IMG/VR virus record: IMGVR_UViG_3300043395_003969
Coordinates: 1-24,582 of that record
Source of the DNA: a virus
DNA: 24,582 nucleotides
Direction: 5' to 3' (one strand)
The translations under genes were made by a program, and so were the position numbers. The notes under the pieces were generated by a model. It saw only the letters and a program-made list of their open reading frames with translations. It was not told where the DNA came from and searched no databases. Below are positions 1,026 to 24,582 of the stretch, piece after piece; within the stretch, counting starts at the first letter, position 1; each line of letters starts with the position of its first letter.

Positions 1026-3412
1026 GCCTTTCCATTGGTCTTCGGCCGCGCCGCTGCGCGGCGTTTGACATCGGCCATCAGCGCCTGCTCCGCCAAGTCC
1101 TGCCGGAAGCCAAGCGCGTCCTGAATCCGTTCCTGTTGGAATTTCTCCGCCTGATGCTGCATCGCCTGGATGTGCGACGCTCGTTCCCCCAGCAACTTCG
1201 TTTGCAGCGAGGCCATTTCAGCCGCTTGGCCTTGCGCCTGAGACTGAGCGTCCAACTCCTTGGCTTGCAATTCAAGCTGTTTGCCTTGCAAGTCCAGCGT
1301 TTTACCTTGGAGCTCCATTTGGCCGCGTTGCAGATCAGTCTGTCCCTTGGCCATTTCGATTTGCAACTTGGGATCAGGCTGCGGCGGGGCAGGGGGTGGC
1401 AACTGGAATTGATCAACCCGCATGTCGTGGTACTCGCCCCATTTCTGGACGAAGCCGTTGAAGCCGGTCACGTCTCCCGTGGCTTGCATGTGGGCTTGGA
1501 TCGCCGGCATGATCACCTGGCCAAACTGCTGGAGATTGGCGACATCGCGATCCCGATCGGGCCGCCGAATGCTGCTGGCAGCGACCGTGTATTTCATTTC
1601 GCGCACGACCAGCTCGATGTCCGTGCTCATCACGAATTGTTCCCAGAGCGTCTTGCCCAGCGGCCCCAGCAAGGGCGCGACGTCATCGCCGGAGATGAAC
1701 CAGCGGGCACAGAACGCCTCCAGCGACGACAACGCGCTTTGCCACTCGACCACTTTGCGGCGCATGTGATCGGGCCGAACTCCGACTGCTCGCGATTTTT
1801 GGATCGCGTCTTCGGCTGAGCGAGACTGAGTCCCGCCTGGATTCATGCCATAGGCCATTTCCGTCAGGCCGGTGCGCTTGTCGAATAGCTCGCTGACCAG
1901 TTCGATGATCTTCCACACGTCGAACCGAGTTTCCGGCTGCGTCAGGACCTGGATTGCCTGACGCACGTCGGCCACGCCAACCGGCGTGGGAATGATGGTC
2001 TGATCCAAGCCCTCTTGAAGGTACTTGGTGTAATGATCGACATGCGGTCCGGCGACAGCCCAGAAATCGCGACTCGACGAGTAGATGCGATTGGCGGCCC
2101 ACGGCACCAAGAAGTTCAGAAACTTCAGTTCGCCCAGTCCAGGAGCGATCGGCGGAATCGGCCAGCTCGATTCATTGTCCTTGTAGAAGTCAAGCACCTC
2201 AACCGGCCAGCGATCGTCGGCCCAATACGGAATCGGCCAGGCGAAGGCTTGTCGGACTTCTTCATCGGTGAGCCCTTCGTTGTAGGGGCCGCCATGACGC
2301 AGCGCCATGCTGGTGCAATTGAGAGGGTAGGGGACCGAGGGGGCGATGCAGAGGTAGGCGTAGTCCCCGACAACTTCTTCGAGTCGCTCGCGCACGGGGA
2401 GATGCAGGCCGCTCAGCCGCGTGCCCGGACCTGACTTCGAGAAGACTTCGTACCAGACCACAAGGTCGTTGCTTTGCCCGTCCTGTTTGTGATCGAAGCC
2501 GGCCTCGCCGTAATGCCAGTTGGATTCGAGAGAGGCTCGTCCTTTGAGGCTGTCCTTTGGCAGCCGGAAGCGGCGCTCAAGCTCCCAGTGAGCATCCACT
2601 CGGCGGATCGCGATCCACTTGGCGTCCTCCAAGCGGGTGAAGTCCGGGTCGATCAGCAGATTCTCCGGCCGCTCGCGGAATGATCCCGTCAGCAAATGCT
2701 CCGACGTCGGCATCTTGTACGTCTTGGTCATCATCACGCCGCGGCCTTTGACCAAGGCATCGACCAGTGCCAGTTCGCTTTCGCCGATCAGGCCACTTTT
2801 TTGCTCGCGCGGCGTGTAGTTCAGCCACGTTTGCAGCAGGTAGGCCACTAGCGAATCGGTCATCTCCGATTGCGATTGCATCGGCGCTAGTTGGTGGATC
2901 ATCTGGCTGAGCTGCAAGGCCGGCATCAACGCCTGCAAAGTGCCTGGGTCAGGCATCGGCGGTGTGGGCAACGGCGCACCAGTTTGCGGATCAATCTGGG
3001 GCTGTCCCTGTTGAGCGATTGCCTGTTGAAAGGCTTGCATCTGCTGCTCGGCCCCGGCCAGATATTGCATCATCTCGTCCGGCAGGCGCAGCATGCGCTT
3101 CGGCTCGACATTCCGAAATGGCACGTCCCACATCAGATTCGGCGCGAAGATCGCCACGAACTCGAATGCTTTGTTGAGCGAAATGCGGAATTTGGGAGCC
3201 TTGACGCCGCGCCAGAATTTCCGCTCGTATTGCGGATTCCACATCGCCGCGGCGCTCTTCGAGTAGAACATCTCGCATTCGGCCGAGACTTCGTTCCAAT
3301 GCGAGCGGGCGCGCTTGGCAGCCTCGAATTTGGAGACCCAGCCTGTGACCAATGGCCGCAGGAACTCGAAACCGGGCGCCAGTGTAAGATCGGCCGCTTC
3401 GGTGAAAGCCAT
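1022..3412 (-). CDS. Portal protein (796 aa)
   Basis: The portal forms the dodecameric ring at one capsid vertex through which DNA is packaged and ejected. Size and architecture fit the large portals of podovirus-like phages. An N-terminal region (about 30-100) contains HWNEVSAECEMFYSKSAAAMWNP and a segment resembling the start of the portal core; a long middle region holds the wing and stem; the last ~130 residues are a Gln/Glu/Lys/Leu-rich coiled coil with repeated LQ-G-K/Q-LELQ-type units, like a barrel or crown domain. A GTG at 3421 extends the frame by three codons, but GGAG (3421-3424) lies eight bases before ATG 3412, so I chose 3412. It ends in an ATGA overlap with the next small gene. 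The call rests on length, composition and synteny with the terminase; individual motifs are weak. Confidence 0.82.
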   Translation of the reverse strand: MAFTEAADLTLAPGFEFLRPLVTGWVSKFEAAKRARSHWNEVSAECEMFYSKSAAAMWNPQYERKFWRGVKAPKFRISLNKAFEFVAIFAPNLMWDVPFRNVEPKRMLRLPDEMMQYLAGAEQQMQAFQQAIAQQGQPQIDPQTGAPLPTPPMPDPGTLQALMPALQLSQMIHQLAPMQSQSEMTDSLVAYLLQTWLNYTPREQKSGLIGESELALVDALVKGRGVMMTKTYKMPTSEHLLTGSFRERPENLLIDPDFTRLEDAKWIAIRRVDAHWELERRFRLPKDSLKGRASLESNWHYGEAGFDHKQDGQSNDLVVWYEVFSKSGPGTRLSGLHLPVRERLEEVVGDYAYLCIAPSVPYPLNCTSMALRHGGPYNEGLTDEEVRQAFAWPIPYWADDRWPVEVLDFYKDNESSWPIPPIAPGLGELKFLNFLVPWAANRIYSSSRDFWAVAGPHVDHYTKYLQEGLDQTIIPTPVGVADVRQAIQVLTQPETRFDVWKIIELVSELFDKRTGLTEMAYGMNPGGTQSRSAEDAIQKSRAVGVRPDHMRRKVVEWQSALSSLEAFCARWFISGDDVAPLLGPLGKTLWEQFVMSTDIELVVREMKYTVAASSIRRPDRDRDVANLQQFGQVIMPAIQAHMQATGDVTGFNGFVQKWGEYHDMRVDQFQLPPPAPPQPDPKLQIEMAKGQTDLQRGQMELQGKTLDLQGKQLELQAKELDAQSQAQGQAAEMASLQTKLLGERASHIQAMQHQAEKFQQERIQDALGFRQDLAEQALMADVKRRAAARPKTNGKA

Positions 3413-3514
3413 CTTGGACACTCCGTTGTCGCGTCTGTAACGCTATCCGGGCGGCGTTGTGTCGCCCGAAGCATCATCGTCGCGCGCCGGAGAATCAGCA
3501 AGGTTTCGCGTCCG

Positions 3515-4015
3515 TCATGTGGCCTGCGCCGTTTTCTGCTTTGCATCGCGCTGCGGTTTGGCCGCTTGCTCCTCTTCGTGGACGCGCCGCTGAATCTCTT
3601 TTTGACGCTCCGTCCTAAGTTCGGATTCGACAGCGGCGATTTGGCGCTCAATCTCTTTGACATGCAAGTTGCCGTGACGGGCGATTGGCCGCTCACCTTC
3701 GCAATAGTCCCAACACCCCCCCAGTTTCATTTTGATCAGATTCTCATTGGCCTCCAAAAAAGGATGATCCTTGTAATGCACGCCGTATCGAAATTCCCGT
3801 TGTACGACCGCGTGCTGAAATAGTTCCAAGCCAACGACTCCGGGACTGTCCTGGCGAGTCACCATTGCGGCGATCGCCTGTTGGGCATTCCCGTTGGGGA
3901 AAAACAACACGACGGACCCGATGTTGGGCGTTGGAATCGGCATCCGCTTTTGGTTGTCGAGAGTGACAAGACGGGATCGCAAATATTCCATGTGGTCGTT
4001 CGTAATCTCTGACAT
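3515..4015 (-). CDS. Hypothetical phage protein between terminase and portal (166 aa)
   Basis: Protein of 166 residues. The first ~115 residues look globular, with a beta-rich segment around IPTPNIGSVVLFFPNG and a conserved-looking GGCWDYCEGERP segment near 98-109. The last ~50 residues form a charged Gln/Glu/Arg/Lys helix, probably a coiled coil. GGAG lies six bases before ATG 4015, in the context CAACGGAGT that also precedes the portal gene. It lies 44 bases after the terminase stop and 102 bases before the portal start. I do not recognise the family; a head-assembly or packaging accessory role is inferred from position. Confidence 0.75.
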   Translation of the reverse strand: MSEITNDHMEYLRSRLVTLDNQKRMPIPTPNIGSVVLFFPNGNAQQAIAAMVTRQDSPGVVGLELFQHAVVQREFRYGVHYKDHPFLEANENLIKMKLGGCWDYCEGERPIARHGNLHVKEIERQIAAVESELRTERQKEIQRRVHEEEQAAKPQRDAKQKTAQAT

Positions 4016-4059
4016 GATCTACTCCGTTGAGGGAAGGGGAGGGAACTGAGGAAATCCTT

Positions 4060-5844
4060 TCAGGCTCGATAACCGGGACCCCAATGCACGTAGTCGCCGT
4101 CCGTCTTGGCGGCTTCGGCTGCCTGAAGTTCCTTAACGGCAGCCAAAATCGGGTTCTGATAAAGAGTCTGATCACTTGGCTGTTGGTAGGCAACTCCCGT
4201 GTCAAACAAGGAGCAAATAAAGGTGCCACCGTATTCGAGGCTGGCCATCGCGTCGTGCTTGCGCGGATTGGATGGAATGTCGAGCATGACTTCCGAGTCG
4301 CGACGGCTCGTGTCGAGCTTGCGTTTGTAGGTGCCGAACTCCTTTTTCGTGATGGGCGTCTTCTCTTCGACGAACAGCAACGTCGGCATGCCATCCGGTT
4401 GCACGGTCAACATCCGCCGAATGGTGCGGAACCGCGTGTGCGGTTGATTGCAGCCGGGATGAAATCCGCTCATCGTCTGGCGAGACACGAGCCGCTCCTT
4501 CCGAAAGCACATCTCGAAGTGCTGAAAGACAGTGTCGTCGCGCCCCACGCTGGTTTGCTTGCCGATTTGCTGATCCATCACGAAAGCTTCGTAAATCATC
4601 CCCAGCATCGCCGTCTTGAGCGCTTGCGCGATCGCGTCAGCGTTCTGCCGCAACAGGATCATCTCCCACTCCACGATCGCGATATCTCCGACATGGACTC
4701 CCTCGAAATCGGGCGGTGGCACGACCCACGAATGACAGGCCGTCCGGGAAAAGCTAGGGTCGAGCGACAAATACCGCGTCCATTCTCTTGGAAACCGGCC
4801 ATCGCGCATCATGATCTCGGTGAGTTTGCGACGGACGGGGTGAATGCTGGCCTGCATCATGGCATCCAGAGCTTGGTGGCGCAGGCAATGCACGACGGGC
4901 GCGAATTGCTCGTACATCAAGCGGCTGGTCAACAGCAGATCGCCGCGGGATCGGCGCGAGACTTCGTCGTCGTCTTCCATGCGCCCCAAAGCTTCCGACT
5001 TGCCCTTCGAGCTGATGAAGGGGTTTTGCTCCATGTCCAGCCGGAACCATTCAATCTGCGGATCGGGCTCACCTTCCGCCTCTTCGGCCCGGTCCATCAA
5101 GCCTAGCAAGGCGTCGTTGCGGTCTTGTGGCCAGACGGACCACAGGAACCAGCCTTCCATGTCGATCAAACGATCTTGGAATTCCTTGAGGTGATCCGGG
5201 ACCTGGATATCTTCGTCGATCCAAATGCCCGCTACAGCTTCGCCCGGCTGGGCAGTGACTTGATTGCTGGGGTAGTAGACCACCGTGGCCCCGTTGCGCA
5301 GCCGAAACAGTTTCCACTGCTGTTCGGCGTGATTCTCCCAAGCGATCCCGCGCCGGCCGCCCTCAATCATGTCTGCGGTGATCAAGGGGGGCGTCAATTT
5401 GGCTTCATCCTCGCGCGCGGCATCGTCGGGATCAGCGCGATTCCAGATGCGCCATTTGTTCGTGACGCGATCCCGAATACACATCAGCGTGCCGCCTTGG
5501 CCGGGCTCAAACAAATATTTGTAGAGCACGCGGGCGTGTGCCCAATTCCAGCCGATCACCCAATATGTGCGGGGCGCCTTCGCTGTCGCCACGCGCCACC
5601 GCGGCTGGATCGTTGTTCCATCGGACAAGGTGATGCGGCGGCCGGTAATCCGGCTCACGAATTCCATCGAGACGCACACCGTTTTGCCGGACCGCTTTCC
5701 GCCACTGACCAAGCACTCGCTGGCTTTGGACCTGTGAAACGGTTCCTGCATGGGCCAGGGCCGATAGAGCAACAGCGGATGCTGCTCATCGTGTTCGATG
5801 GCATCCAGCAAATGCCCAATCCGTTGGAGCCTTGCGTCGCTCAT
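4060..5844 (-). CDS. terL: Terminase large subunit (ATPase-nuclease, 594 aa)
   Basis: The packaging motor that cuts concatemeric DNA and pumps it through the portal. The N-terminal ATPase domain has a Walker A loop SGGKRSGKT (47-55) and a Walker B strand GIWIDEDI (206-213, with D210 and E211). The C-terminal RNase H-like nuclease domain shows the expected acidic residues: D362 in YLSLDPS, D424 in FVMDQQIG and D531 in RKHDAMASLEYGG. Length is typical for TerL. ATG 5844 shares its A with the stop of the upstream gene (TAATG) and has GAGG seven bases ahead, so translation is coupled. No key residue appears missing. Identification as TerL is firm; the packaging type (cos, pac or terminal repeats) cannot be told from this sequence. 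Confidence 0.95.
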   Translation of the reverse strand: MSDARLQRIGHLLDAIEHDEQHPLLLYRPWPMQEPFHRSKASECLVSGGKRSGKTVCVSMEFVSRITGRRITLSDGTTIQPRWRVATAKAPRTYWVIGWNWAHARVLYKYLFEPGQGGTLMCIRDRVTNKWRIWNRADPDDAAREDEAKLTPPLITADMIEGGRRGIAWENHAEQQWKLFRLRNGATVVYYPSNQVTAQPGEAVAGIWIDEDIQVPDHLKEFQDRLIDMEGWFLWSVWPQDRNDALLGLMDRAEEAEGEPDPQIEWFRLDMEQNPFISSKGKSEALGRMEDDDEVSRRSRGDLLLTSRLMYEQFAPVVHCLRHQALDAMMQASIHPVRRKLTEIMMRDGRFPREWTRYLSLDPSFSRTACHSWVVPPPDFEGVHVGDIAIVEWEMILLRQNADAIAQALKTAMLGMIYEAFVMDQQIGKQTSVGRDDTVFQHFEMCFRKERLVSRQTMSGFHPGCNQPHTRFRTIRRMLTVQPDGMPTLLFVEEKTPITKKEFGTYKRKLDTSRRDSEVMLDIPSNPRKHDAMASLEYGGTFICSLFDTGVAYQQPSDQTLYQNPILAAVKELQAAEAAKTDGDYVHWGPGYRA

Positions 5845-8777: not shown

Positions 8778-9899
8778 TCAGGCGTAATTCTTCAGCTTGC
8801 CGAAGTGCTTGGGGCTGTATTGGGCGTTTCCGAAGAAGCCCGTGCCCCAGATGGTTGACCAGTTGGTGCGCGGGTCTTCGGTCGGACCCTTGGTCCAGAA
8901 CAAATCCGGCATCAAGCTGATCAGAGTCATCTTGTCCAAATTCAAGCAGTACCCAGTGTTGGCCGGGCAATCGAAATCCGGCTGGATGGCACAGCCGTCT
9001 TGGTTCAAGGTGTTACCCTTGAAGCCGAGATCGTTCGCCGCGCTGTGGGGAATCTCGATACGACGAATGACTTCGTTGTGGTTCTTGTAGCCCTGCATCA
9101 GGTTGCTGGCCAACAAGCAGATGTCCGGCATTCCTTCCTGGGAATTGGTGACGGTCAGGAAGGTGATCATCGCCCCGATGGCGCGCCAGCAGTTGTCTTC
9201 CCATTGAGTGCTGCCACCGGTGCCCCAATTGGTGGAACTCCAGTTGACCAGCTTTGGAGACAAGAAGTCGAACTCGGCGTTGCCTGAGCCATACGGCCAG
9301 TCCTTCGCCACCGTTGCGTTGGGGCTCGTCGTCAACACTGAGGTCCAGGTGCCACCCTGGTTCCCTAAGGCTGTGCTCAAGGCTCCCAAGCCGTAAGTGT
9401 CGCTCGGCTGTGCCACGATATCGCCCGCCGCACAGGCGCCGGCGCCCATGAAGGTTTCCAGGCCATGCACGGCGTTGCCGCGCCCGGCCTCTTCGCCATC
9501 TTTGAAGAGTTCACCGTTGAACGTGTTGGTGATCGACTTCATCAGCCGCGACTGTTTGGTCGCGAACAAATTGATGAGCGCCTCCATGCCGCTGTTCATC
9601 GCGCCTTGTTTCATCGAAATCGCGTCCGTCGCGTTGTAACCGCGCCAGTCGATGGAAAGCTGGCGGAACGCATCGTGATTGGCGAAGTCGATGGTGCCAC
9701 CGTCGCCGTAGGCTTCCACCGGCGGCTGCGAGAATTCCACCTGCCAGCGGCATTCGTCGCCGCTGCCGTTGTATTGAATGCGGCCCTTCTGACGCAGCAG
9801 CGCCAGCATCAAGCGGGAACGCAACGTGAGGTCGCTGGCGCCCTTCATGTACTTAGGCATCGTGGAATTGATAATGCCTACAAATTCGGACGAAGGCAT
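8778..9899 (-). CDS. Major capsid protein, HK97-fold type (373 aa)
   Basis: Forms the icosahedral shell. The length and layout fit an HK97-type capsid protein with little or no N-terminal scaffold extension: an N-terminal arm (1-40), a beta-hairpin E-loop-like region rich in Gly and aromatic residues (about 40-85, including YNGSGDECRWQVEFSQPP), a long spine-helix-like stretch (about 95-140) with MSGMEALINLFATKQ-like composition, and a beta-rich C-terminal half ending in NYA. AAGGAGC lies nine bases before ATG 9899. The scaffold-like gene precedes it and the decoration-like gene follows, a normal head-gene order. HK97 fold is inferred from size, composition and synteny. Confidence 0.85.
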   Translation of the reverse strand: MPSSEFVGIINSTMPKYMKGASDLTLRSRLMLALLRQKGRIQYNGSGDECRWQVEFSQPPVEAYGDGGTIDFANHDAFRQLSIDWRGYNATDAISMKQGAMNSGMEALINLFATKQSRLMKSITNTFNGELFKDGEEAGRGNAVHGLETFMGAGACAAGDIVAQPSDTYGLGALSTALGNQGGTWTSVLTTSPNATVAKDWPYGSGNAEFDFLSPKLVNWSSTNWGTGGSTQWEDNCWRAIGAMITFLTVTNSQEGMPDICLLASNLMQGYKNHNEVIRRIEIPHSAANDLGFKGNTLNQDGCAIQPDFDCPANTGYCLNLDKMTLISLMPDLFWTKGPTEDPRTNWSTIWGTGFFGNAQYSPKHFGKLKNYA

Positions 9900-9922
9900 G
9901 ACAAGGCTCCTTCCTTACAGAC

Positions 9923-11209
9923 TCACGCAGCGGCCGAGTGCCCCGCCTGCGCGCGAAAATCGTTGAGAAACATCTGGTCCAATTCCCCCTGACTGACGGC
10001 GATCGGGCCAGCGGGGGATTGGACAACATTCGCACCAGCACTGGGAACATGGGTGGCATTGGCCAAAGCGGCATTCAGAAAGCTTTGCTGCCGCTGTTGA
10101 TTGATTTGTTGAGGAACGACCTGCTGGGGAGGCACGAATGGCTGTGCCTGTTGGACTGCCGGCGCCGGTTGTTGCCCCGGCTGAGCCGCACGTATCACCG
10201 CGAGTTCGGTGAGGTCGCGACACAAATTCAAAAGATCTCCGGTTGTCCCGGTCCACGACTGCTGTCGCTGCTTGAATTGCTGCGTGAAATACTCGCCGGC
10301 CGGACTCAACATCTGCCCGCCGTTCGCATTCGCCTGGTAGAGCCAGGTCTGGTTCGCCTGATCGAATTGGTTGATGCCGTTGATGTCCGCGGCCTGAGAC
10401 TGCACGGTCGCGAGCTGTTCCTTGACGCGCTGGTCAATCAAACGCTGGATCGGCTCCTGCATGGCCCCGAAGAATTTTTGATAGGGGTTCGACGCCATGA
10501 CCTCTTGCCACTGCTGGCGTTGGTGATTCACGGCCGCGTTGAGCCCGTGCAAAATCGGCGCGACCATGATTTCCATGCCCGGCCGAGGCTCCATCAGGCC
10601 GGTCTCGTCGTTGCGAATGACCATTCCTTGGTTGATCGCGAACTGCATCTCAGGGGTGAGCTGTGGCGCATTCCACAACTTCGCGAAATGGTTTTCTGGA
10701 GTCCATTCGACCTGCGGTTGCGGCTGGCCGGGCTGTTGCTGACCGGCTGGTTGTTGCGCTTGGTTGCGAAAGAAGTCCTGCATCTGGTCGGCAAACGGCA
10801 GGAGCGATTGGCCGAATTGAGCGATGGGTGCCAGTTGCTGGTATCGCTGCATCAACGCTGCCGCAACGTCGGCGTCTGTCGCCGTCGCAGGCAACTCGAT
10901 CCCCAATTGGTGAGCCTGTTGGGCCAGGCTGGGCTGAGATGGCGCGACGGCCGGTGGCGCGGTGGAAATGCCTGCGGGAGGTGGCGAACCTTCGGCCAGT
11001 GTGAAAGAAGCCTGTCCCCCCGCAGGTGCGGTTGGTGCTGGTTGAGCTTGCGCGGCTGCCGCGAACATGCCGGCCAAAGATTCGGCAGTGGGTTGAGCCT
11101 GTGGCACAACAGGGGCAGCCGTGGCGGCCTGAGCCGGCGCCGCGCCGGCTGGCATACCGGCCGGCGTGAACGTTCCGTTTCCATTCGAGTTCGGGATTTG
11201 CGGGAACAT
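9923..11209 (-). CDS. Scaffolding-like protein, Gln/Pro/Ala-rich (428 aa)
   Basis: The frame is open to 11272, but ATG 11209 follows AAGGA by seven bases and gives the sensible start MFPQIPNSNG. The protein is low in complexity: residues 10-110 are Ala/Pro/Gln-rich and probably disordered, the middle (about 120-330) is helical and Gln-rich, another Pro/Gln tract follows, and the C-terminus ends in a short helical motif (SQGELDQMFLNDFRAQAG). Capsid-proximal position, helical and disordered composition and a compact C-terminal helix are typical of phage scaffolding proteins, whose C-termini bind the capsid. No Ser/His/Asp protease motif is seen. It is the first gene of the late minus-strand string. 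Confidence 0.75.
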   Translation of the reverse strand: MFPQIPNSNGNGTFTPAGMPAGAAPAQAATAAPVVPQAQPTAESLAGMFAAAAQAQPAPTAPAGGQASFTLAEGSPPPAGISTAPPAVAPSQPSLAQQAHQLGIELPATATDADVAAALMQRYQQLAPIAQFGQSLLPFADQMQDFFRNQAQQPAGQQQPGQPQPQVEWTPENHFAKLWNAPQLTPEMQFAINQGMVIRNDETGLMEPRPGMEIMVAPILHGLNAAVNHQRQQWQEVMASNPYQKFFGAMQEPIQRLIDQRVKEQLATVQSQAADINGINQFDQANQTWLYQANANGGQMLSPAGEYFTQQFKQRQQSWTGTTGDLLNLCRDLTELAVIRAAQPGQQPAPAVQQAQPFVPPQQVVPQQINQQRQQSFLNAALANATHVPSAGANVVQSPAGPIAVSQGELDQMFLNDFRAQAGHSAAA

Positions 11210-11337
11210 GGCGGATTCCTTGAGGGAGGGGATTGGGAGAAACCGGAGGGGATATCTCCCAATTTCCACCAAACCTCAGGGAATCTTTCTGAATCATCGT
11301 TGCGAAACGACGCCAAGAGTCTTAGGTTGATCGCGAC
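11210..11337. promoter_or_regulatory. Divergent control region between late and accessory operons
   Basis: The only divergent gap in the left half; it must hold start signals for both strands or leader RNA for the minus operon. ATTGGGAGA (11232-11240) and TCTCCCAAT (11255-11263) form a perfect nine-bp inverted repeat just upstream of the scaffold gene RBS. A second near-palindrome (TCGTTGCGAAACGA, about 11297-11310) lies towards the plus-strand gene. On the plus strand TTGCGA and TAGGTT are 17 bases apart, a weak promoter match. No confident sigma-70 promoter is visible. Confidence 0.45.
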
Positions 11338-11577
11338 ATGACACAAGCCACGATCAACTTTGGCGTTTACCCACTCGGCATCATGCCGATCGACGTGTTC
11401 GCCAAACATGCGCGGGTCGCCCCGCAAACGATCCGGCGGTGGAATCGGGAAGGCCGGATCAATCCCTTCACCAGCGAACGGATTCGTTGCAGTCTCACCG
11501 CTTTGCCAAGCGGCGGCTGGGGAATCACCGAGCGGCAGTACGATGAATTCATCAAGGCGCTCAACGAACGGCTGTGA
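11338..11577 (+). CDS. Small helix-turn-helix DNA-binding protein (79 aa)
   Basis: Residues 17-45 (MPIDVFAKHARVAPQTIRR followed by WNREGRINP) match the winged helix-turn-helix of MerR/excisionase-like small DNA-binding proteins: a helix, a turn, then the TIRRWxxEGRI recognition segment. The C-terminal part ends in a helix (ITERQYDEFIKALNERL). As the first gene of the plus-strand operon next to the divergent region, it is a candidate local regulator or Xis-like protein (inference). ATG 11338 has only a weak AGG upstream; an internal ATG at 11383 would retain the HTH. Its stop overlaps the next start. Confidence 0.75.
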   Translation: MTQATINFGVYPLGIMPIDVFAKHARVAPQTIRRWNREGRINPFTSERIRCSLTALPSGGWGITERQYDEFIKALNERL

Positions 11578-11810
11578 GACTCTCGCTTAAAAAGATCATG
11601 CTCATGCTCACGCTCTCTAACTTGGTGGATCGGATTGCCACGATCACGCAACAGCGGTTTGAGTTGGCCGAACTCGTCGAGAAGCTTTTGGACCTGATTG
11701 AGGGCAATGACTCCGCTGAAGCTGCAGCCCTCCGCGACGCCGCTCGGAAGTTATTTGCTGACCATTCAGCCGACCGACGAGGCGGCCGGGAAGGGGCCTG
11801 TGATGGGTGA
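11574..11810 (+). CDS. Small helical hypothetical protein (78 aa)
   Basis: Begins with a GTG overlapping the preceding stop (GTGA); internal ATGs at 11598 and 11604 are alternatives giving 68-70 residues. The protein is mostly helical and acidic in the middle (RFELAELVEKLLDLIEGNDSAEAAALRDAARKLF, quoted in parts by eye), ending in a basic Arg/Gly tail that overlaps the next gene by eight bases. I do not recognise it; composition suggests a small dimerising helical protein. Confidence 0.55.
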   Translation: MRLSLKKIMLMLTLSNLVDRIATITQQRFELAELVEKLLDLIEGNDSAEAAALRDAARKLFADHSADRRGGREGACDG

Positions 11811-12609
11811 CGTCACCAAAATTCAATGGGCACACCATACCTGGAATCCTTGGCGCGGTTGCACGCACGCGATTTTAGCGGACGGCACGGAGCATCCAGG
11901 GTGTGCTCGCTGCTACGCCGAGGCGATGTCGAAACGCAACTCGACCGTACTCGGCGAATGGGGGCCAGGAGCTCACCGCGCTGTCGCTTCCGAGAGTTAC
12001 TGGAAGACTCCGCTTCGATGGAATCAGAAAGCGAGCGCGGCCAGAGAACGCCGGCGTGTGTTCTGCGCGAGCCTCGCCGACATCTTCGAGGATCGGGCCG
12101 ACCTAATTCCTTCGCGGGTGCGAGTGTTTCGCACGATCGACCAATGTCCTTGGCTGGATTTCTTACTGTTGACGAAAAGGCCGCAAAACATTCGGCGCCT
12201 GTGGCCTGGGTTGCTCGGTCGTAGCAACGTGTGGTTGGGAACCTCGGTCAGCGATCAGCAGACGGCCGAGGAACTCTTGCCGCAACTGATTACCTGCCGC
12301 GATCTCGCACCAGTGCTGTTCGCGTCCGCGGAGCCTTTGCTGGGACCGATCGACTTTCGCTTCAGCGTCTTTGGCGTGTCTGCGATCGAGACGCTAGAGT
12401 GGATCATCTTTGGAGGGGAGAGCGGCCCGCACGCCCGACCGTGTAACGTCAATTGGATTCGCGACGGGCTTGAGCAGTGCGAGCAAGTCCCCGTCCCAGC
12501 CTTCGTCAAGCAACTTGGGTCGCAGGTTTGCCGATATTTCTTAGCTGATCCAAAAGGCGGTGATCCGTCAGAATGGCCGCACGATTTACGAGTTCGACAA
12601 TTCCCATGA
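11803..12609 (+). CDS. Phage Gp37/Gp68 family protein (DUF5131), 268 aa
   Basis: The N-terminus carries the family signature: KIQWAHHTWNPWRGC, then a Cys pair CARCYAEAMSKR. The Cys pattern is C20-X13-C34-X2-C37, which from general knowledge of the family resembles a radical-SAM-like three-Cys cluster; most members I recall have a shorter first spacing, so the DGTEHP insertion is unusual. Later motifs also fit: VFCASLADIFED, LLLTKRP, VWLGTSVSDQ, SAEPLLGPI and IIFGGESGPHARP. The frame is open back to 11698, but ATG 11803 follows AAGGGG by six bases and starts exactly at the family N-terminus. Biochemical function is unknown; it is common in phage and mobile DNA. Confidence 0.9.
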   Translation: MGDVTKIQWAHHTWNPWRGCTHAILADGTEHPGCARCYAEAMSKRNSTVLGEWGPGAHRAVASESYWKTPLRWNQKASAARERRRVFCASLADIFEDRADLIPSRVRVFRTIDQCPWLDFLLLTKRPQNIRRLWPGLLGRSNVWLGTSVSDQQTAEELLPQLITCRDLAPVLFASAEPLLGPIDFRFSVFGVSAIETLEWIIFGGESGPHARPCNVNWIRDGLEQCEQVPVPAFVKQLGSQVCRYFLADPKGGDPSEWPHDLRVRQFP

Positions 12610-12800
12610 AACCACGACGTTTCGAGCTACAGCGACGAAAGCATGACGGAACTTGGCAGCTCATCAGCGGCCACAACACCGCGCTGATGGCCGCTGCGAA
12701 AGCCGACCGTGTCGCCGCGGATTCAATTGACCTCAACCGGTTCTACGTCCTCGACCGATTGACACAACAACGAGTTCGAGCACAGGACGTCAAACCCTGA
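12606..12800 (+). CDS. Small basic hypothetical protein (64 aa)
   Basis: ATG 12606 overlaps the stop of the Gp37/Gp68-family gene (ATGA), implying translational coupling; no independent RBS is visible, and an earlier in-frame ATG at 12573 is less likely. The protein is basic (MKPRRFELQRRKHDGTW at the start) with a compact alpha/beta pattern and ends with VRAQDVKP. It resembles small phage proteins with an RxxxLQRR...G.W opening, but I know no function. Confidence 0.6.
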   Translation: MKPRRFELQRRKHDGTWQLISGHNTALMAAAKADRVAADSIDLNRFYVLDRLTQQRVRAQDVKP

Positions 12801-12824
12801 GATAAAGAAAGGGGGCATGACGAA

Positions 12825-13043
<219 letters not shown>

Positions 13044-13052
13044 GGAAACCGT

Positions 13053-13352
13053 ATGACTCCCCAAGAACTGAAAGCCGCCGCCGCTGTCATGCTGGAGGCA
13101 GCAAACAATCCTTCTGCCACTGTGGAATATCGCACAAGGTCCTCCGCAGAACGCGGAGAACCGTGGCATTTCGCGTTGAATCCGGTCTGGGATTGGGGCG
13201 GCTACGTCTACCGCATTCGCAAGCAGAAATCGCTTGGTCAGATTGCCTACGAAGCGAATGGCGGGCCGCCAAATTGGGATCAACTCGGCGATGAATGGCA
13301 GAGACGATGGCAATCGGTCGCTGATGCTGTCCTCGCTGAACACCAGGGGTGA
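13053..13352 (+). CDS. Conserved-looking phage hypothetical protein (99 aa)
   Basis: AGGG lies seven bases before ATG 13053. The centre reads EPWHFALNPVWDWGGYVYRI, the Trp/Tyr-rich pattern of a small beta-rich phage domain often placed at the end of larger phage proteins; the rest is helical (MTPQELKAAAAVMLEAA at the start, WQRRWQSVADAVLAEH at the end). It ends three bases before the methyltransferase start. Function is unknown; a DNA- or substrate-contact role for the neighbouring methyltransferase is possible but not shown. Confidence 0.7.
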   Translation: MTPQELKAAAAVMLEAANNPSATVEYRTRSSAERGEPWHFALNPVWDWGGYVYRIRKQKSLGQIAYEANGGPPNWDQLGDEWQRRWQSVADAVLAEHQG

Positions 13353-14771: not shown

Positions 14772-15464
14772 ATGACGAAGCCACGACGCCCGCGCGCGGC
14801 CAAACAACCTGACACTCCACCGGGCAAAATGGCGCAGCAAATTGGCGACCCAATGCATCGTCGCCGGCGTCGTTGCAACCACTGCGGGATCGAGCTCACG
14901 GAGGAGAACAAGCCGACCACGGCTCTCCGTTGTCGTCGTTGTGTTGGTTTGTTTCGTCGCAAAGAGAAGTGGCGTCATAAGTTACTTCGTGGTCGGCATA
15001 TTTTGCGGGAGCTTGCTGAGGCTGAGAATCTGGAGATTTTGCGTCATCGTCTGGACGTACTCAGCTCAGATTACCCCGTATCGTATCTCTCTGAGCTGGT
15101 CCATGAGGTGCTCCGACGCTGCGCGTCGTCGCGTCCCGGTATGTTGGCTGTTGTGCTGACGATGCTACTGAAGTGTCGTGTGTTGTCGGAGTCTCTACCT
15201 CCTCCGTCTGAGGTGTGGCTTGAGGCGACTGGCGACAAGCGGGCTGGACCTGTCGGGAAGCTAGATCGGGCGATGGCTGATTGGGTTCTGCGTCATCCTG
15301 GGTTGTGTGTGGACCTGCTGCGCGAGTTGGGGTACGCGGTGACTCCCCCTGCCCGCGTGCTTCGGACTGACCCTGATGTGCGGGCGTGGCACACTCGGAG
15401 GCAGCGTGATCGGAAGCCGGCCCTCTTGGCTTGGGAGCGGTACGAGCTGGGCGGGGAAGCGTAA
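14772..15464 (+). CDS. Zinc-ribbon hypothetical protein (230 aa)
   Basis: A very basic N-terminus (TKPRRPRAAKQPDTPPGK) leads into a four-Cys zinc ribbon, CNHC at residues 35-38 and CRRC at 54-57 with 15 residues between, followed by a Lys/Arg-rich helix (GLFRRKEKWRHKLLRGRH). The remaining ~150 residues are helical with no motif I recognise. The layout suggests a nucleic-acid-binding protein. ATG 14772 has no good RBS; ATGs at 14829 and 14853 also lack one. Codon choice (many CGT, GTT and TCT) looks different from the GC3-rich neighbours, which could mean a separate origin (by eye, not computed). Confidence 0.7.
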   Translation: MTKPRRPRAAKQPDTPPGKMAQQIGDPMHRRRRRCNHCGIELTEENKPTTALRCRRCVGLFRRKEKWRHKLLRGRHILRELAEAENLEILRHRLDVLSSDYPVSYLSELVHEVLRRCASSRPGMLAVVLTMLLKCRVLSESLPPPSEVWLEATGDKRAGPVGKLDRAMADWVLRHPGLCVDLLRELGYAVTPPARVLRTDPDVRAWHTRRQRDRKPALLAWERYELGGEA

Positions 15465-15652
15465 TCTGCCGGTTGAGCGGCAGGCGTTCCCGGCAAGCCC
15501 GGCAAAGTCGTTGCAATCGTCAAATTGAGCGGCGATTTATTCCGGTCCGGGAATTTGATCGGAATTTTTCAAGTTTTGGTCGGCAGTCGGCCGAAAATCA
15601 TTGCATCGCCGGAAAATTCGCAAGCCGCCCCAAAGTGGGTGGCAGAGTGGCA

Positions 15653-15665
15653 GAGAAACCTACCA
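15653..15665 (+). repeat. GAGARACCTACCA motif, copy 1
   Basis: GAGAAACCTACCA. Other copies are at 16169-16181, 17352-17364 and, inverted, at 17416-17428. All lie between genes of the plus-strand block 14772-18897; a shorter relative (GGAGCCTACCAT) forms the translation-start context of two genes. Confidence 0.6.
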
Positions 15666-15807
15666 AACGGCGAAGCAAGACAAAGACACCGCAGCGGGGA
15701 TGGTCCCTTAACATTTGCTGGTGGCTTACAAGGCTGAGCATGTGGTTGCGGTTGAGGAGTTTATTGCTGCTGCGGCTGCACGGAACGTGAAGGCCAAGGC
15801 GGCTTAA

Positions 15808-15867
15808 TGGTGACGGCTGGCGGGTCAGTCCCGCCAGTAAACCACGGGTCCCGTCCGAAGTCGGGGC
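15808..15867 (+). repeat. Two-hairpin intergenic element, copy 1
   Basis: A 60-base element repeated at 18912-18972. Hairpin 1 is a perfect eight-bp stem CTGGCGGG/CCCGCCAG (15817-15824 with 15830-15837) with loop TCAGT. A conserved TAAACCAC-GGT linker follows, then hairpin 2, CCCGTC CGAA GTCGGG, with one U-U mismatch. Copies agree in stems and linker, while the first loop differs in sequence and length. It lies just before the RBS of the 15899 gene, so a leader RNA or protein-binding element is likely (inference). Confidence 0.65.
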
Positions 15868-18911: not shown

Positions 18912-18972
18912 TGGTGACGGCTGGCGGATTGGATGCCGCCAGTAAACCACAGGTCCCGTCCGAAGTCGGGGC
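18912..18972 (+). repeat. Two-hairpin intergenic element, copy 2
   Basis: Second copy of the element at 15808-15867, again placed right after a stop codon and upstream of a small gene. Stem 1 is CTGGCGG/CCGCCAG (18921-18927 with 18936-18942) with the different loop ATTGGATG, one stem pair shorter than in copy 1. Linker and hairpin 2 are the same except one base in CCACAGG versus CCACGGG. Confidence 0.65.
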
Positions 18973-19492: not shown

Positions 19493-19584
19493 GGCGAACG
19501 TCAAAGTTCAGCCGGGCGGCGCGGTTGAACTCCGAAGACAGAACACGCGCGAACGCCGCCTCGTGCTGGAACGACTTGTTAGCC
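19493..19584 (-). repeat. attC-like element 1 (92 nt)
   Basis: Bounded by GGCGAAC (19493-19499) and GTTAGCC (19578-19584). The arms GTTCAGC-CG-GGCGGCG and CGCCGCC-T-CG-T-GCTG-GAAC pair with three unpaired bases (T, T, G), all on the 3' arm of the plus strand. Read on the minus strand it begins GGCTAACAAGTCGTTCCAGC, like known integron attC sites, hence the strand given. It aligns without gaps to element 2 (also 92 nt), including ACAGAA-ACGCGC in the loop. Confidence 0.7.
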
Positions 19585-19887
19585 ATGCTTTGTTGCGGGA
19601 ATGAAATCACAACAGCCTTTTGCCCTCACTGCGGGAAAGCCAATGCGATCGTGGATAGATTGCCAATGCTTTTGAAGATGTGTGAGAGTAATCAACGAAA
19701 CAACGAAACTCGTGTGACTCAATGCGAGGGGCGGCTTGCGGACGAACGCTGCAAGGAGCATTGGGGCCGCATCGCGAAAACCAAAGCGGCGAGAGCAAAG
19801 GCGGCTGAGAAGTGGCGTCAGGCTGGCGAACAGTTACTGGCTGCAATGGCGGCGTATCAGAAGATGCGCGATGCTGAGCGTGGCTAA
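19585..19887 (+). CDS. Cassette 1: zinc-ribbon-like small protein (100 aa)
   Basis: ATG 19585 is the first base after the GTTAGCC core; its stop TAA lies inside the 3' core GGCTAAC, a classic gene-cassette feature. A longer form starting TTG 19525 in the loop of element 1 would add 20 residues. The protein has MLCCGNEITTAFCPHCGKAN at the N-terminus: CPHC plus an upstream CC pair may bind one metal ion. The C-terminal half is a charged Ala/Lys/Gln helix (AAEKWRQAGEQLLAAMAAYQ). No RBS is visible before ATG 19585. Function unknown. Confidence 0.65.
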   Translation: MLCCGNEITTAFCPHCGKANAIVDRLPMLLKMCESNQRNNETRVTQCEGRLADERCKEHWGRIAKTKAARAKAAEKWRQAGEQLLAAMAAYQKMRDAERG

Positions 19888-19973
19888 CGCTCAGGTTCAG
19901 CCGTGCGGCGGAGAGAAGATTATGAGTACAGAAAACGCGCAGTCCGCCGCTCGGCTGGAACCGCTTGTTGGGC
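19882..19973 (-). repeat. attC-like element 2 (92 nt)
   Basis: Bounded by GGCTAAC (19882-19888) and GTTGGGC (19967-19973). The arms GGTTC-AGCCG-GCGGCGGA and its complement pair over about 19 bp with one A-A/T-T mismatch and one unpaired G on the 3' plus-strand arm. Read on the minus strand it begins GCCCAACAAGCGGTTCCAGC and ends CTGAGCGTTAGCC, close to known attC ends. Its loop contains GGAG and the ATG of the next gene (19922). Confidence 0.75.
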
Positions 19974-20182
19974 GCCGGTTGTTTGGTCTCATAGCGAGGT
20001 GCAAAATGGAGCTTTCTGGTTGCAGCGATACCATGCCCTGCGTGAATTTGTTTTTGAGTCGTCAGGCGGCTCAGGCAGAAGTTGAAGCGTTTCGTATTCG
20101 GTGTCGGCAGCCGACCGATTGCGATCTTGATTGCGGTGAACCAATTCGCGTTGAGGTGTGTGAATTTGTGGTGGCTGGATAG
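19922..20182 (+). CDS. Cassette 2: small hypothetical protein (86 aa), start inside the attC-like element
   Basis: ATG 19922 lies in the loop of element 2 with GGAG (19910-19913) eight bases upstream. The 3' arm and core of the element are then translated as SAARLEPLVGRR. A later ATG at 20006 also has a good RBS (GAGG, six bases) and would give 58 residues without any element-derived sequence. The body ends with DLDCGEPIRVEVCEFVVAG, has five or more Cys and looks like a small alpha/beta protein. The stop TAG ends four bases before the GCCCAAC core. Function unknown; which start is used is not decided. Confidence 0.6.
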   Translation: MSTENAQSAARLEPLVGRRLFGLIARCKMELSGCSDTMPCVNLFLSRQAAQAEVEAFRIRCRQPTDCDLDCGEPIRVEVCEFVVAG

Positions 20183-20186
20183 CGCC

Positions 20187-20199
20187 GCCCAACAGTTAA
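20187..20199 (-). other. Array-end recombination-core-like site, left copy
   Basis: On the minus strand the sequence reads TTAACTGTTGGGC. GTTGGGC is the exact complement of the GCCCAAC/GTTGGGC core pair that bounds cassette 2, but no attC hairpin follows. The identical TTAACTGTT plus core occurs in the opposite orientation at 24164-24176, at the other side of the replication module. By analogy with integrons, this is the attI-like end of the array. Confidence 0.55.
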
Positions 20200-21344: not shown

Positions 21345-22754
21345 TCACACCGTCCAATCTTTCGACGGAAACGCGCGAGATGCCGCGTCAATTGCCGCCT
21401 CGCGACCGCGCGCGAGATCGGCAAACCGAGTGCATGCGGCCATCCAGGCCATCGAAACGATTCCCGTTTGCCCGTTGCGGTTCTTTGCGCAGATCACGTC
21501 GATCTCGCCAGGTCGCTCTTCGGGCTCAAAATCCGAGGGACGATGCAAGAACAAAACCTTGTCCGCGTCCTGCTCAATGGAACCAGACTCCCGTAAATCG
21601 GCCAATCGGGGACGCTTATCCTCTCTGTTCTCGATGTTCCGATTCATCTGAGCCAGCACGACGATGGGGATACCAAGTTCCTTCGCCAGTATCTTCAGCG
21701 ATTTAGTGATCGACGCCACCTCTTGCTCTCGTGGCCGATTGTTGGATGGCGGTAGGTCAGGCTGAACGAGCTGCAAGTAGTCCACCAACAGCATGCCGAT
21801 GTTCTCTTTGCGTTTAGCCCGCCTGGCTGTCGCCGCGATCGACGAAAAACGTTGGGACGGCCTGTCGTCGATCCGTAGGGGCATCTTGGAAAGCTTGCCC
21901 GCCGTCTCCAGCAAAATCTCGCGTTCTGTGGTATCGAGCCCCATGCAGTTCTTGAGCTTCCTGCCTGACACTCCACTCTCAATGGAAAGTAAGCGTTCGG
22001 ACCATTCCAGCTTGGTCATTTCCAAACTGATCATCACCGAGGGAATCCCACGCTTTCCAAGATTCAAAGACAAACACGTCGCGAATGCGGATTTACCAAC
22101 TCCTGGTCGCGCTGCGACGATCACCAGTTCTCCATCTCCCAATCCGATCAACAACTCGTCCAAATCGGCGAAACCCGTTGCCGTCCCATGTGGCTGCCCG
22201 CTGTCGATTCGCGATTGGATTTCCGCCCACGCTTCAACCATCACATCACGGATCGAGACATCGACTTCCGGGTTGTAACGTTCGGTGATGGTCCGCAGGA
22301 CCGCTTCCGCTTTGGCAGCGATCTCGTCATCGGAGCCTGTGTCCGCAACCTCCAAAACCTCTCGGCAGCCGTAAACAGCGATGCGGGATTTCCAGGACGA
22401 GGCAACCAGCGCGGCGTAGTAGGCCGCATGGGACGAGTTTGGCACCGTCGCCATGATCTCGGTAAAGTGTTTCACTCCGCCGACTTGCTCGAATTGCTTC
22501 CGCCTGTCGAGTTCGGTGGCCACAGTCACGGCATCAATGGGAAACGTCGATCGACGAAGGCTCTGAATCGCCTCCCAGATCAACCGATGCGCGTCGGCGT
22601 AGAACCAGTCGGACTCCAGCAACGGTAGGTCATCAAGCGTGTCGGCCGGGGACGGAGAAACGAGCACGCTTCCAATGACAGCCATCTCGGCTTCGAGATT
22701 CTGAGGCGGTTGACCGTTGCGCGATGATTTTGGTTGGGGATTTGTGGCTGGCAT
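21345..22754 (-). CDS. dnaB: Replicative DNA helicase, DnaB family (469 aa)
   Basis: Hexameric helicase that unwinds DNA at the replication fork. The N-terminal domain starts with the typical QNLEAEMAVIGSVL; the RecA-like C-terminal domain has Walker A AARPGVGKSAFA (about 219-230), Walker B MLLVDYLQLVQP (about 325-336) and the late motif LRESGSIEQDADKVLFLHR. Length is normal for DnaB and no key residue appears changed. A TTG at 22760 extends the frame, but GGAGG seven bases before ATG 22754 sets the start. The gene follows the initiator gene by 57 bases, an initiator-helicase order similar to lambda O-P or P22-type modules. Confidence 0.96.
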   Translation of the reverse strand: MPATNPQPKSSRNGQPPQNLEAEMAVIGSVLVSPSPADTLDDLPLLESDWFYADAHRLIWEAIQSLRRSTFPIDAVTVATELDRRKQFEQVGGVKHFTEIMATVPNSSHAAYYAALVASSWKSRIAVYGCREVLEVADTGSDDEIAAKAEAVLRTITERYNPEVDVSIRDVMVEAWAEIQSRIDSGQPHGTATGFADLDELLIGLGDGELVIVAARPGVGKSAFATCLSLNLGKRGIPSVMISLEMTKLEWSERLLSIESGVSGRKLKNCMGLDTTEREILLETAGKLSKMPLRIDDRPSQRFSSIAATARRAKRKENIGMLLVDYLQLVQPDLPPSNNRPREQEVASITKSLKILAKELGIPIVVLAQMNRNIENREDKRPRLADLRESGSIEQDADKVLFLHRPSDFEPEERPGEIDVICAKNRNGQTGIVSMAWMAACTRFADLARGREAAIDAASRAFPSKDWTV

Positions 22755-22811
22755 CGCCAAACCTCCATAAACGCTCTAGGACCGATCGTAGTAGTCGAAA
22801 CGATTCCGACG

Positions 22812-23717
22812 TCACGCCGGAACCGGCTCGCCCCGTGCAGCCTCAATGCGCACTTTCTTGAGCCATTGCTGACCCTCATCGGCCAGATAGGGGGCTGGAT
22901 TCCGGCAAGCCTTCGCAAAATAGGCGGCCGGGCGCGGTTTGGTTCTGGCAATTTCGATCAGTCCGAGCAGCGCGTCCCGTGTCTTTTCCGCATGAATCCC
23001 CAATTTCGGTCCCAGACCGTGACCCTTCCACCAGTGATACACGAACTCTTCGCGGTCAACGGCCCTTTTGAGCCCCCAGAGTTCCGCGGGCATCGCGGGA
23101 AGGCTGGCAAGCTGAGACTTTGGTTCCTGAGCTTGTGGTTCACTCGAAATGATTGAAGAAGATTCATTCATTCCTTCATTCAGACTTTCAACGCAAGTGG
23201 ACAAGGTGGACTGCGGTGGACAGTCGGTGGACTGCGGTGGACACGGAGTGGACACGGAGTGGACAGCGGGTGGACAAGAAGTGGACACGGAGTGGACAGA
23301 CTTAAACTCAGGAATGGCAACGGGTTGCTCGATCGAATCGAACCAGTCTCGGAGGTTTTGTGTATTCATCCAGATTGAGTGCGTGGATACCGCCATCACG
23401 CCGCGCTGAACCCAAACCTGAAGCGCTTTGTGAAAACCAGAATGGTCGCATCGCAACCCGCGGACGCACTCGCAGTTCGCACGACACCAAGCCGCAGCTT
23501 CCCGGATCGTCAAATCGACCCGGCGGATACCGCCTTCCAGCACTACCTTGTCCGGGTGTGAGTCGAGCAGCAACACAATCGCCCGCTGAATTCTCGCAAC
23601 GTCCTTGGAACGCATCTGGGCATCAAGGATCTTTGTGTTGCGGCCCTTGCGAATCCGAGCCACTTCAGCGTCTACATCCGCGTCAATTTGTTCAATATCA
23701 AGAGACAACTGAGACAT
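22812..23717 (-). CDS. Replication initiation protein with internal origin repeats (301 aa)
   Basis: GGAGG lies seven bases before ATG 23717; the longer frame to 23816 crosses a hairpin and is rejected. The N-terminal ~130 residues contain a probable winged helix (RRVDLTIREAAAWCRANCEC to ALQVWVQRGVMAV). A Ser/Thr/Pro/Cys-rich linker follows, encoded by ten GTGGAC repeats. The C-terminal ~100 residues (LPAMPAELWGLKRAVDREEF to YLADEGQQWLKKVRIEAAR) look like a helical helicase- or DnaA-contact domain. Position before dnaB, domain layout and iterons within the linker all match a lambda O-like initiator that binds its own gene. I cannot name a specific family. Confidence 0.78.
   Translation of the reverse strand: MSQLSLDIEQIDADVDAEVARIRKGRNTKILDAQMRSKDVARIQRAIVLLLDSHPDKVVLEGGIRRVDLTIREAAAWCRANCECVRGLRCDHSGFHKALQVWVQRGVMAVSTHSIWMNTQNLRDWFDSIEQPVAIPEFKSVHSVSTSCPPAVHSVSTPCPPQSTDCPPQSTLSTCVESLNEGMNESSSIISSEPQAQEPKSQLASLPAMPAELWGLKRAVDREEFVYHWWKGHGLGPKLGIHAEKTRDALLGLIEIARTKPRPAAYFAKACRNPAPYLADEGQQWLKKVRIEAARGEPVPA
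23197..23297. repeat. Ten phased GTGGAC iterons: candidate replication origin
   Basis: GTGGAC starts at 23197, 23206, 23216, 23227, 23237, 23248, 23259, 23270, 23281 and 23292, at spacings of 9, 10, 11, 10 and then five times 11 bases. This is close to one helical turn, so all copies face the same side of the DNA. The spacing is not a multiple of three, so protein repeats do not explain it. An AT-rich stretch (23151-23190, 27 of 40 bases A or T, with ATTC repeats) adjoins on the left, as an unwinding element would. Confidence 0.75.
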
Positions 23718-23736
23718 GAGCGAACCTCCGTGCCGT

Positions 23737-24163: not shown

Positions 24164-24176
24164 TTAACTGTTAGAT
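24164..24176 (+). other. Array-end recombination-core-like site, right copy
   Basis: TTAACTGTTAGAT. GTTAGAT (24170-24176) is the exact complement of ATCTAAC (24473-24479) at the far end of the same cassette. The preceding TTAACT is shared with the left copy at 20187-20199, in the opposite orientation. Confidence 0.55.
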
Positions 24177-24518
24177 TGCTGGCATCACTACATCTTCAGG
24201 AACTTCGACGCTCCACCCTGTCTCGCGAAACCACGCCAAGCGCTTGGCTACATTGCGTCCGTACTCATTGCCGTCCCCTGGCACGAAAAAGTCATCGCAA
24301 TCAACAACCACTGATCCGTCAATACTCCACGTCACTTGCTCAACCACTTGATTGCCGTCGGTCCCATCGCAACGCGAGAGCCATTCACCAATGACCGGAA
24401 CGCGGACAAACGGTACGTCTCGCTCCACCCAGAAATACCATTCGGAAGAAAAGACGCCGACACAAAAACGCAATCTAACAAGTCGGTCAAGCCGAGTTGC
24501 GGATGACGCTGTTTCCAT
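24171..24518 (-). CDS. Cassette 3: hypothetical protein (115 aa), start inside the attC-like element
   Basis: ATG 24518 lies in the loop of the attC-like element with AAAGGA eight bases upstream; the element's arm and core are translated as SSATRLDRLVRLR, similar to SAARLEPLVGRR in cassette 2. The stop TAA is inside the ATCTAAC core (minus strand, 24176-24170). The protein is acidic, rich in Val, Asp and Trp, with WYFWVERDVPFVRVPVIGEW as a beta-like segment and GRNVAKRLAWFRETGW as a helix. Function unknown. A TTG start at 24473, just past the core, would give 100 residues. Confidence 0.65.
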   Translation of the reverse strand: METASSATRLDRLVRLRFCVGVFSSEWYFWVERDVPFVRVPVIGEWLSRCDGTDGNQVVEQVTWSIDGSVVVDCDDFFVPGDGNEYGRNVAKRLAWFRETGWSVEVPEDVVMPAI

Positions 24519-24562
24519 AATCAAAATCCTTTGGCCGCAACCGGCTTACCTTGTCGTTATGC
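24473..24562 (+). repeat. attC-like element 3 (90 nt)
   Basis: Bounded by ATCTAAC (24473-24479) and GTTATGC (24556-24562). The arms GGT-C-AAGCCG-A-GTTGCGG and CCGCAACCGGCTTACC pair over 16 bp, leaving C and A unpaired on the 5' plus-strand arm; on the opposite strand these are G and T, the extrahelical bases expected in integron attC sites. TAACAAGTCGGTCAAGCCGA closely resembles known attC left ends. Its strand is opposite to the adjoining gene. Confidence 0.78.
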
Positions 24563-24582
24563 GGCTGCTTCAACGCCGCCCA
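24557..24582 (-). CDS. 3' end of a further cassette gene (runs off right edge)
   Basis: Only seven codons are visible on the minus strand (GGVEAAA), ending in a TAA inside the core GCATAAC (24562-24556). The stop within the core repeats the arrangement of cassettes 1 and 3, which is the only reason to call it. Nothing can be said about function. Confidence 0.3.

Follow-up and report, generated by a model that had tools for sequence, protein, structure and literature searches.

The fragmentary virus record IMGVR_UViG_3300043395_003969 comprises 24,582 bases, and all of it was analysed here as the window. It holds three attC sites in two groups (Table 1), and our covariance model R3 detected nothing else above background. 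Array 1 (19493-20193) lies on the minus strand and consists of cassettes A and B with two attC. Array 2 lies on the plus strand and consists of cassette C and the start of cassette D. This strand assignment, which corrects the initial annotation, was read from the extra base in L'' and from the R3 scores (57.7 and 44.5 bits for array 1). The two groups are oriented oppositely and point away from each other, with a ParB-like gene, a DnaB gene and a gene for a 307-aa protein between them. The initial annotation had placed a second attC array on the other side of this replication module. The cassette, its attC and the second group proved genuine, but since the record stops at 24582 the stretch at 24164-24582 contains one complete attC and the beginning of the next cassette, and strictly it is not yet an array.

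The nearest genes to the left of about 20,300 point rightward, and every gene beyond it points leftward. The cassette genes follow the direction of the neighbouring phage genes and therefore run against their own attC. We found no match to the integron integrase model TIGR02249 anywhere in the record, itself a fragment, so the locus does not qualify as a complete integron (intI and attI). Array 1, with its attC at 19493-19584 and 19882-19973, corresponds to a CALIN, which is defined by two or more neighbouring attC in the absence of an integrase.

Both groups begin at the same 9-mer, TTAACTG/TT, which occurs in the window only at these two array starts (0.045 copies expected in shuffles). This boundary is possibly a secondary, attG-like insertion site. 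A close relative with an empty site was not found. Sister phages, identified by their terminase (about 39-48% identical), yielded none with attC, and R3 detected no site in 424 kb of the loci sharing the terminase, so these phages offered no empty site for comparison. A type-P5 twister ribozyme lies at 18913-18970 on the plus strand, just after a DUF932 gene (46.8 bits, gathering score 37.6).

Table 1. Features of the cassette groups and the replication genes between them (window coordinates).
Feature	Position	Strand	Basis or remark
attC, cassette A, array 1	19493..19584	-	R3 44.5 bits, E 3e-9
Cassette A	19499..19887	-	matched core, GGCTAAC and GTTAGCC
Cassette A gene, ~100 aa, Cys-rich	19585..19887	+	antisense to attC; uncertain whether it begins at ATG 19585 or at TTG 19525 in attC loop
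attC, cassette B, array 1	19882..19973	-	R3 57.7 bits, E 1.5e-12
Cassette B	19888..20192	-	matched core; core GTTGGGC at 20193-20187 (-)
Cassette B gene, 86 aa, MSTENAQSAARLEPLVGRR...	19922..20182	+	Shine-Dalgarno GGAG and ATG in attC loop
DnaB-like replicative helicase	21345..22760	-	PHROG 19, E 7e-98
307-aa protein, replication module	22812..23735	-	without family match
TTAACTG/TT, outer boundary of array 2	24164..24172	+	same 9-mer bounds array 1 at 20191-20199 (-)
Core GTTAGAT, left edge of cassette C	24170..24176	+	exact complement of ATCTAAC at 24473
Cassette C (G/TT to G/TT)	24171..24556	+	matched cores and attC
Cassette C gene, 115 aa, METASSATRLDRLVR...	24171..24518	-	ORF and Shine-Dalgarno; antisense to attC; ATG 24518-24516 in attC loop
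attC, cassette C	24473..24562	+	R3 56.5 bits, E 3e-12; structural finder score 8.0; folds
R'' ATCTAAC	24473-24479	+	sequence
Spacer AAGTC	24480-24484	+	unpaired
L'' GGTCAAGCCG	24485-24494	+	extrahelical C 24488; second extra base A 24495 after L''
Shine-Dalgarno AAAGGA of cassette C gene	24527..24532	-	sequence; 8 nt ahead of ATG, within attC loop
L' CGGCTTACC	24542-24550	+	sequence
Spacer TTGTC	24551-24555	+	unpaired
R' GTTATGC	24556-24562	+	sequence
Cassette D start, cut by record end	24557..24582	-	frame ends ...GGVEAAA-stop, TAA in core GCATAAC

Anatomy and scoring of the attC sites

At 24473-24562 the components of an attC follow one another in order: R'' and R' cores with the conserved AAC and GTT, unpaired spacers, and L'' and L' arms separated by a long loop. 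L'' carries the extrahelical bases and is one base longer than L' owing to C 24488. We take the positions of C 24488 and A 24495 to match those of the extrahelical bases of attCaadA7. Both strands of the site fold more stably than shuffled sequence (z about -3.5). The cores GTTAGAT (24170-24176) and ATCTAAC (24473-24479) are exact complements, as noticed at the outset. A matched core arose in 0.3% of dinucleotide shuffles of the preceding 400 nt and in 2.3% within 1.5 kb. In all three window cassettes the 5' core is complementary to the R'' of the cassette's own attC; the chance rates at 400 nt are 0.3%, 1.7% and 1.3%, jointly about 0.003 x 0.017 x 0.013.

A structural finder built to accept only sites with an extra base in L'' gave scores of at least 8 at two places in the window only, 24473-24562 (+) and 19882-19973 (-), which it ranked first. 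Among 4000 shuffled windows, 40 contained one such site and a single one contained two. R3 was built from 18 other attC (16 from IMG/VR and two from bacterial arrays) with the window excluded. The IMG/VR part of this training set had been retrieved with a pattern similar in its L arms to the window sites, and the test therefore does not depend on the window, though it does on the attC subtype. The three sites scored 57.7 (19882-19973, -), 56.5 (24473-24562, +) and 44.5 bits (19493-19584, -), and the next-best match in the window, at 12.1 bits, came from the other strand of 24473-24562. In TJE1, a phage tested experimentally, R3 also recovered two of the three sites to which the structural finder had pointed. 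The proposal of a canonical-looking attC at 24473-24562 thus holds with a model score, a finder score and a fold. In the defining features that could be checked here, the window sites conform to attC and the units to integron cassettes; recombination of the sites by an integron integrase, preferably through the bottom strand, is predicted.

Two earlier models, R1 and R2, built on short bacterial attC, gave the window sites just 8-10 bits or missed them because both penalise long loops, and they were replaced by R3. A scan against Rfam returned no attC family match. When we searched about 400 Pseudomonadota genomes for this attC subtype, only a Halorhodospira genome matched, itself used as a centre of the search, so the cassette source may lie in another phylum. 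The attC of cassette A is 82% identical over 93 bp (blastn) to an attC of the viral contig G414, and this likeness suggests a common cassette pool.

Polarity of the cassette genes

The genes of cassettes B and C take their first residues from an attC arm; at the other end, the stop codon of C lies within the opposite core and that of B shortly ahead of it. The frame of cassette C runs through L'' and R'' and ends in the core at 24170, whose TAA on the minus strand is its stop codon. That of cassette B begins at 19922, downstream of the loop GGAG, and terminates a little ahead of the core at 20187. Cassette D repeats the pattern of cassette C, with a minus-strand frame that ends in its core. 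The initial annotation had seen this fourth cassette and the stop codon correctly; what needed correction is the assignment of the core stop codons, which terminate genes antisense to the attC. The usual rule that gene and attC share one orientation, which is not strictly defining, does not hold for cassettes B and C, and cassette A is likely antisense as well. A Shine-Dalgarno sequence and ATG in the loop followed by a frame of at least 80 codons occurred in 0.75% and 1.0% of shuffled cassettes. Codon usage favours neither strand in the window cassettes. The cassette C protein had no match in Pfam, NCBIfam, PADLOC, PHROGs, phage and plasmid tblastn searches, or IMG/VR and GTDB pattern searches, and its AlphaFold model (pLDDT 38) was uninformative.

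Reversed genes recur in other viral contigs. G414 carries 14 attC, all on the plus strand, and its phage-like genes are mostly on the minus strand, with a helicase, a ParB-like protein and a pyrophosphatase encoded around the attC. A codon test there called one cassette forward, six reverse and four unclear. At least three reversed G414 genes have a Shine-Dalgarno sequence and ATG in the loop, and one of them encodes a C5 methyltransferase. Pfam confirmed both C5 and MT-A70 methyltransferases among the reversed cassettes; the MT-A70 genes of contigs G416 and G417 start within the attC, and L229 has a reversed C5 methyltransferase cassette.

As a bacterial control we used arrays beside intI genes located with TIGR02249. 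Their ORFs supported by a Shine-Dalgarno sequence were forward in 15 cases and reverse in one, and codon usage gave 17 forward and none reverse. The viral sample, 22 stretches retrieved from IMG/VR with an attC pattern free of any ORF condition, gave no forward and 13 reverse ORFs by the same Shine-Dalgarno test. However, codon usage called four of the viral sites forward, six reverse and six unclear, so the ratio of 0 to 13 overstates the contrast between viruses and bacteria. Strict loop starts were present at 2/2 window sites, 3/12 in G414, 3/20 ORF-blind viral sites and 0/29 sites of bacterial intI arrays; the viral samples are small and in part picked by sequence similarity to the window sites. 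An earlier IMG/VR loop pattern, which returned mostly Gly-Ser-Thr repeat genes, was discarded. We also dropped the idea that all phage arrays are antisense, since the cassettes of TJE1 (in our own scan) and most of those in the viral contig L134 are forward; reversal is frequent in the sample and not universal.

In L134 (IMGVR_UViG_3300027811_000005), the region 8942-13068 contains a gene for an integron integrase (TIGR02249, 428.6 bits), at least four attC behind it and, beyond these, a primase-like gene. Another contig, L211 (G420), has two opposed attC arrays, 3019-5083 (+) and about 14774-15857 (-), roughly 10 kb apart and with genes mostly antisense.

Proposed cassette movement and competing readings

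Integrons are best known for the spread of antibiotic resistance genes. We consider it probable that the window carries phage-borne integron cassettes, one group on each side of the replication genes, with no integrase in the record sequence, and that these cassettes, whose genes are reversed and in B and C start in the loop, are moved by a host integrase. Most likely, the reversal lets phage transcription read them. An integron integrase supplied in trans by the host would fold the bottom strand of the attC and insert or excise whole cassettes at the core G/TT. We infer this step from membership of the attC family and from the phage attC experiments in PMC9892861. The reversed genes would be read by phage transcription with no need for an integron promoter, and since each cassette has its own ribosome site inside the attC, its gene would be translated at any position of a phage operon into which the cassette had inserted. 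More tentatively, reversal may make the recombinogenic bottom strand both the coding strand and the lagging-strand template, if replication and transcription are co-directional. Such placement raises excision in chromosomal integrons (PMC11023631), so these arrays are predicted to shuffle readily.

The attC parts of the window, R'', spacer (UCS), L'' with extrahelical bases, VTS, L', spacer and R', and the complementary cores are those of class 1 and chromosomal integron cassettes of the attCaadA7 type. In those cassettes, however, the genes run with the attC and usually end near R'', whereas the window genes run against it. Short ORFs within attC aid downstream translation in class 1 integrons (PMC8876359), and in both systems translation signals lie inside the attC. 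In class 1 integrons, however, the short ORF is in sense orientation and is coupled to the following cassette, whereas in the window the signal initiates the cassette's own antisense gene. The inverted Vibrio cholerae superintegron of PMC11023631 shares with the window an expected recombinogenic strand on the lagging-strand template; that whole array was inverted by experiment, whereas in the window each gene is inverted inside its own cassette.

The strongest competitor, which we regard as rather unlikely, is that the window simply holds a phage CALIN like those reported before, with reversed genes as chance or minor variation without meaning. Phage attC are indeed known: Qi 2023 (PMC9892861) reports CALINs, clusters of attC lacking an integrase, in 17 phages, and five of six tested phage attC were active with IntI1; TJE1 carries attC that were shown to recombine. 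These CALINs resemble the window in having attC and cassettes with no integrase nearby, and they carry DNA methyltransferase cargo, as do some of the reversed viral cassettes seen here. TJE1 and PH101 are typical in direction according to the same paper, and some Vibrio cassettes have antisense promoters (PMC11014356). On the other hand, the window differs from those CALINs in its two opposed groups, its genes antisense to the attC and its start codon in the loop. Loop starts are found in both clear window cassettes, each at about 1% by chance, and several viral contigs have loop-started reverse genes, whereas none of the 29 bacterial control sites does. In our own scan, phage MW202573 from that study has attC on the minus strand and annotated genes on the plus strand, an arrangement on which the text consulted does not remark.

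Repeats such as attC can break assemblies, and array 2 sits at the very end of the record, where bacterial integron sequence could have been joined onto a phage contig. We judge such a chimera very unlikely: array 1 is internal with phage genes on both sides, internal arrays are present in G414 and G420 too, and the reversed polarity differs from that of the sampled bacterial arrays.

Hardly plausible, in our view, is that orientation was misjudged and the cassettes are forward, each attC lending its ribosome site to the next cassette much as the class 1 attC ORFs of PMC8876359 do. The boundaries alone are symmetric, and read forward the array 1 genes would begin beside one core and end in the next. 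But R3 prefers the called strand by 56.5 to 12.1 bits, the extrahelical bases fall in L'' only under the called orientation, and with the finder used for the window, TJE1 and nearly all of the bacterial arrays come out forward. That the hairpins are merely attC-like, for example RNA regulators or terminators of a phage operon, is a negligible prospect: stable hairpins within phage operons and the weak scores from models trained on short bacterial attC would fit it, but R3 E-values of 1e-9 to 1e-12, both extrahelical bases and matched cores in all three cassettes speak against it.

What looks new in these reversed phage cassettes is their polarity, a gene antisense to its attC with a start in the loop. 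We did not find this arrangement in the literature searched, of which our coverage is incomplete. It is possible, and we put it forward as a tentative generalisation, that many phages use a distinct, phage-adapted type of cassette. Its gene would be inverted, with ribosome site and start placed in the attC loop, and the coding strand, as lagging-strand template, would be the recombinogenic one. Such cassettes would be self-translating in any phage operon and primed for fast shuffling by host integrases, and would supply rearrangeable accessory genes such as methyltransferases. If phages carry backward cassettes with loop starts, they could tap the cassette pool with no integron promoter. Control of cassette orientation and any tuning of phage recombination by strand placement could then be tested directly by existing attC x attI assays.

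Two further arrangements were seen in other viral contigs. The MT-A70 methyltransferases of L205 (12010-12561) and L176 (6271-6843) have a common attC-encoded N-terminus, EAQRNECPLDRLVIPHG, and a common C-terminus, RRPRDGWTVWGNEV, and differ in the middle. A half attC (ATATAACAAGCCGTTCCAGCGGAC) lies shortly ahead of a Gp37/68-like gene starting MSTKIEWADEVWNPVTGC in L129 (4143), L132 (6977), L138 (4968) and L139 (2196).
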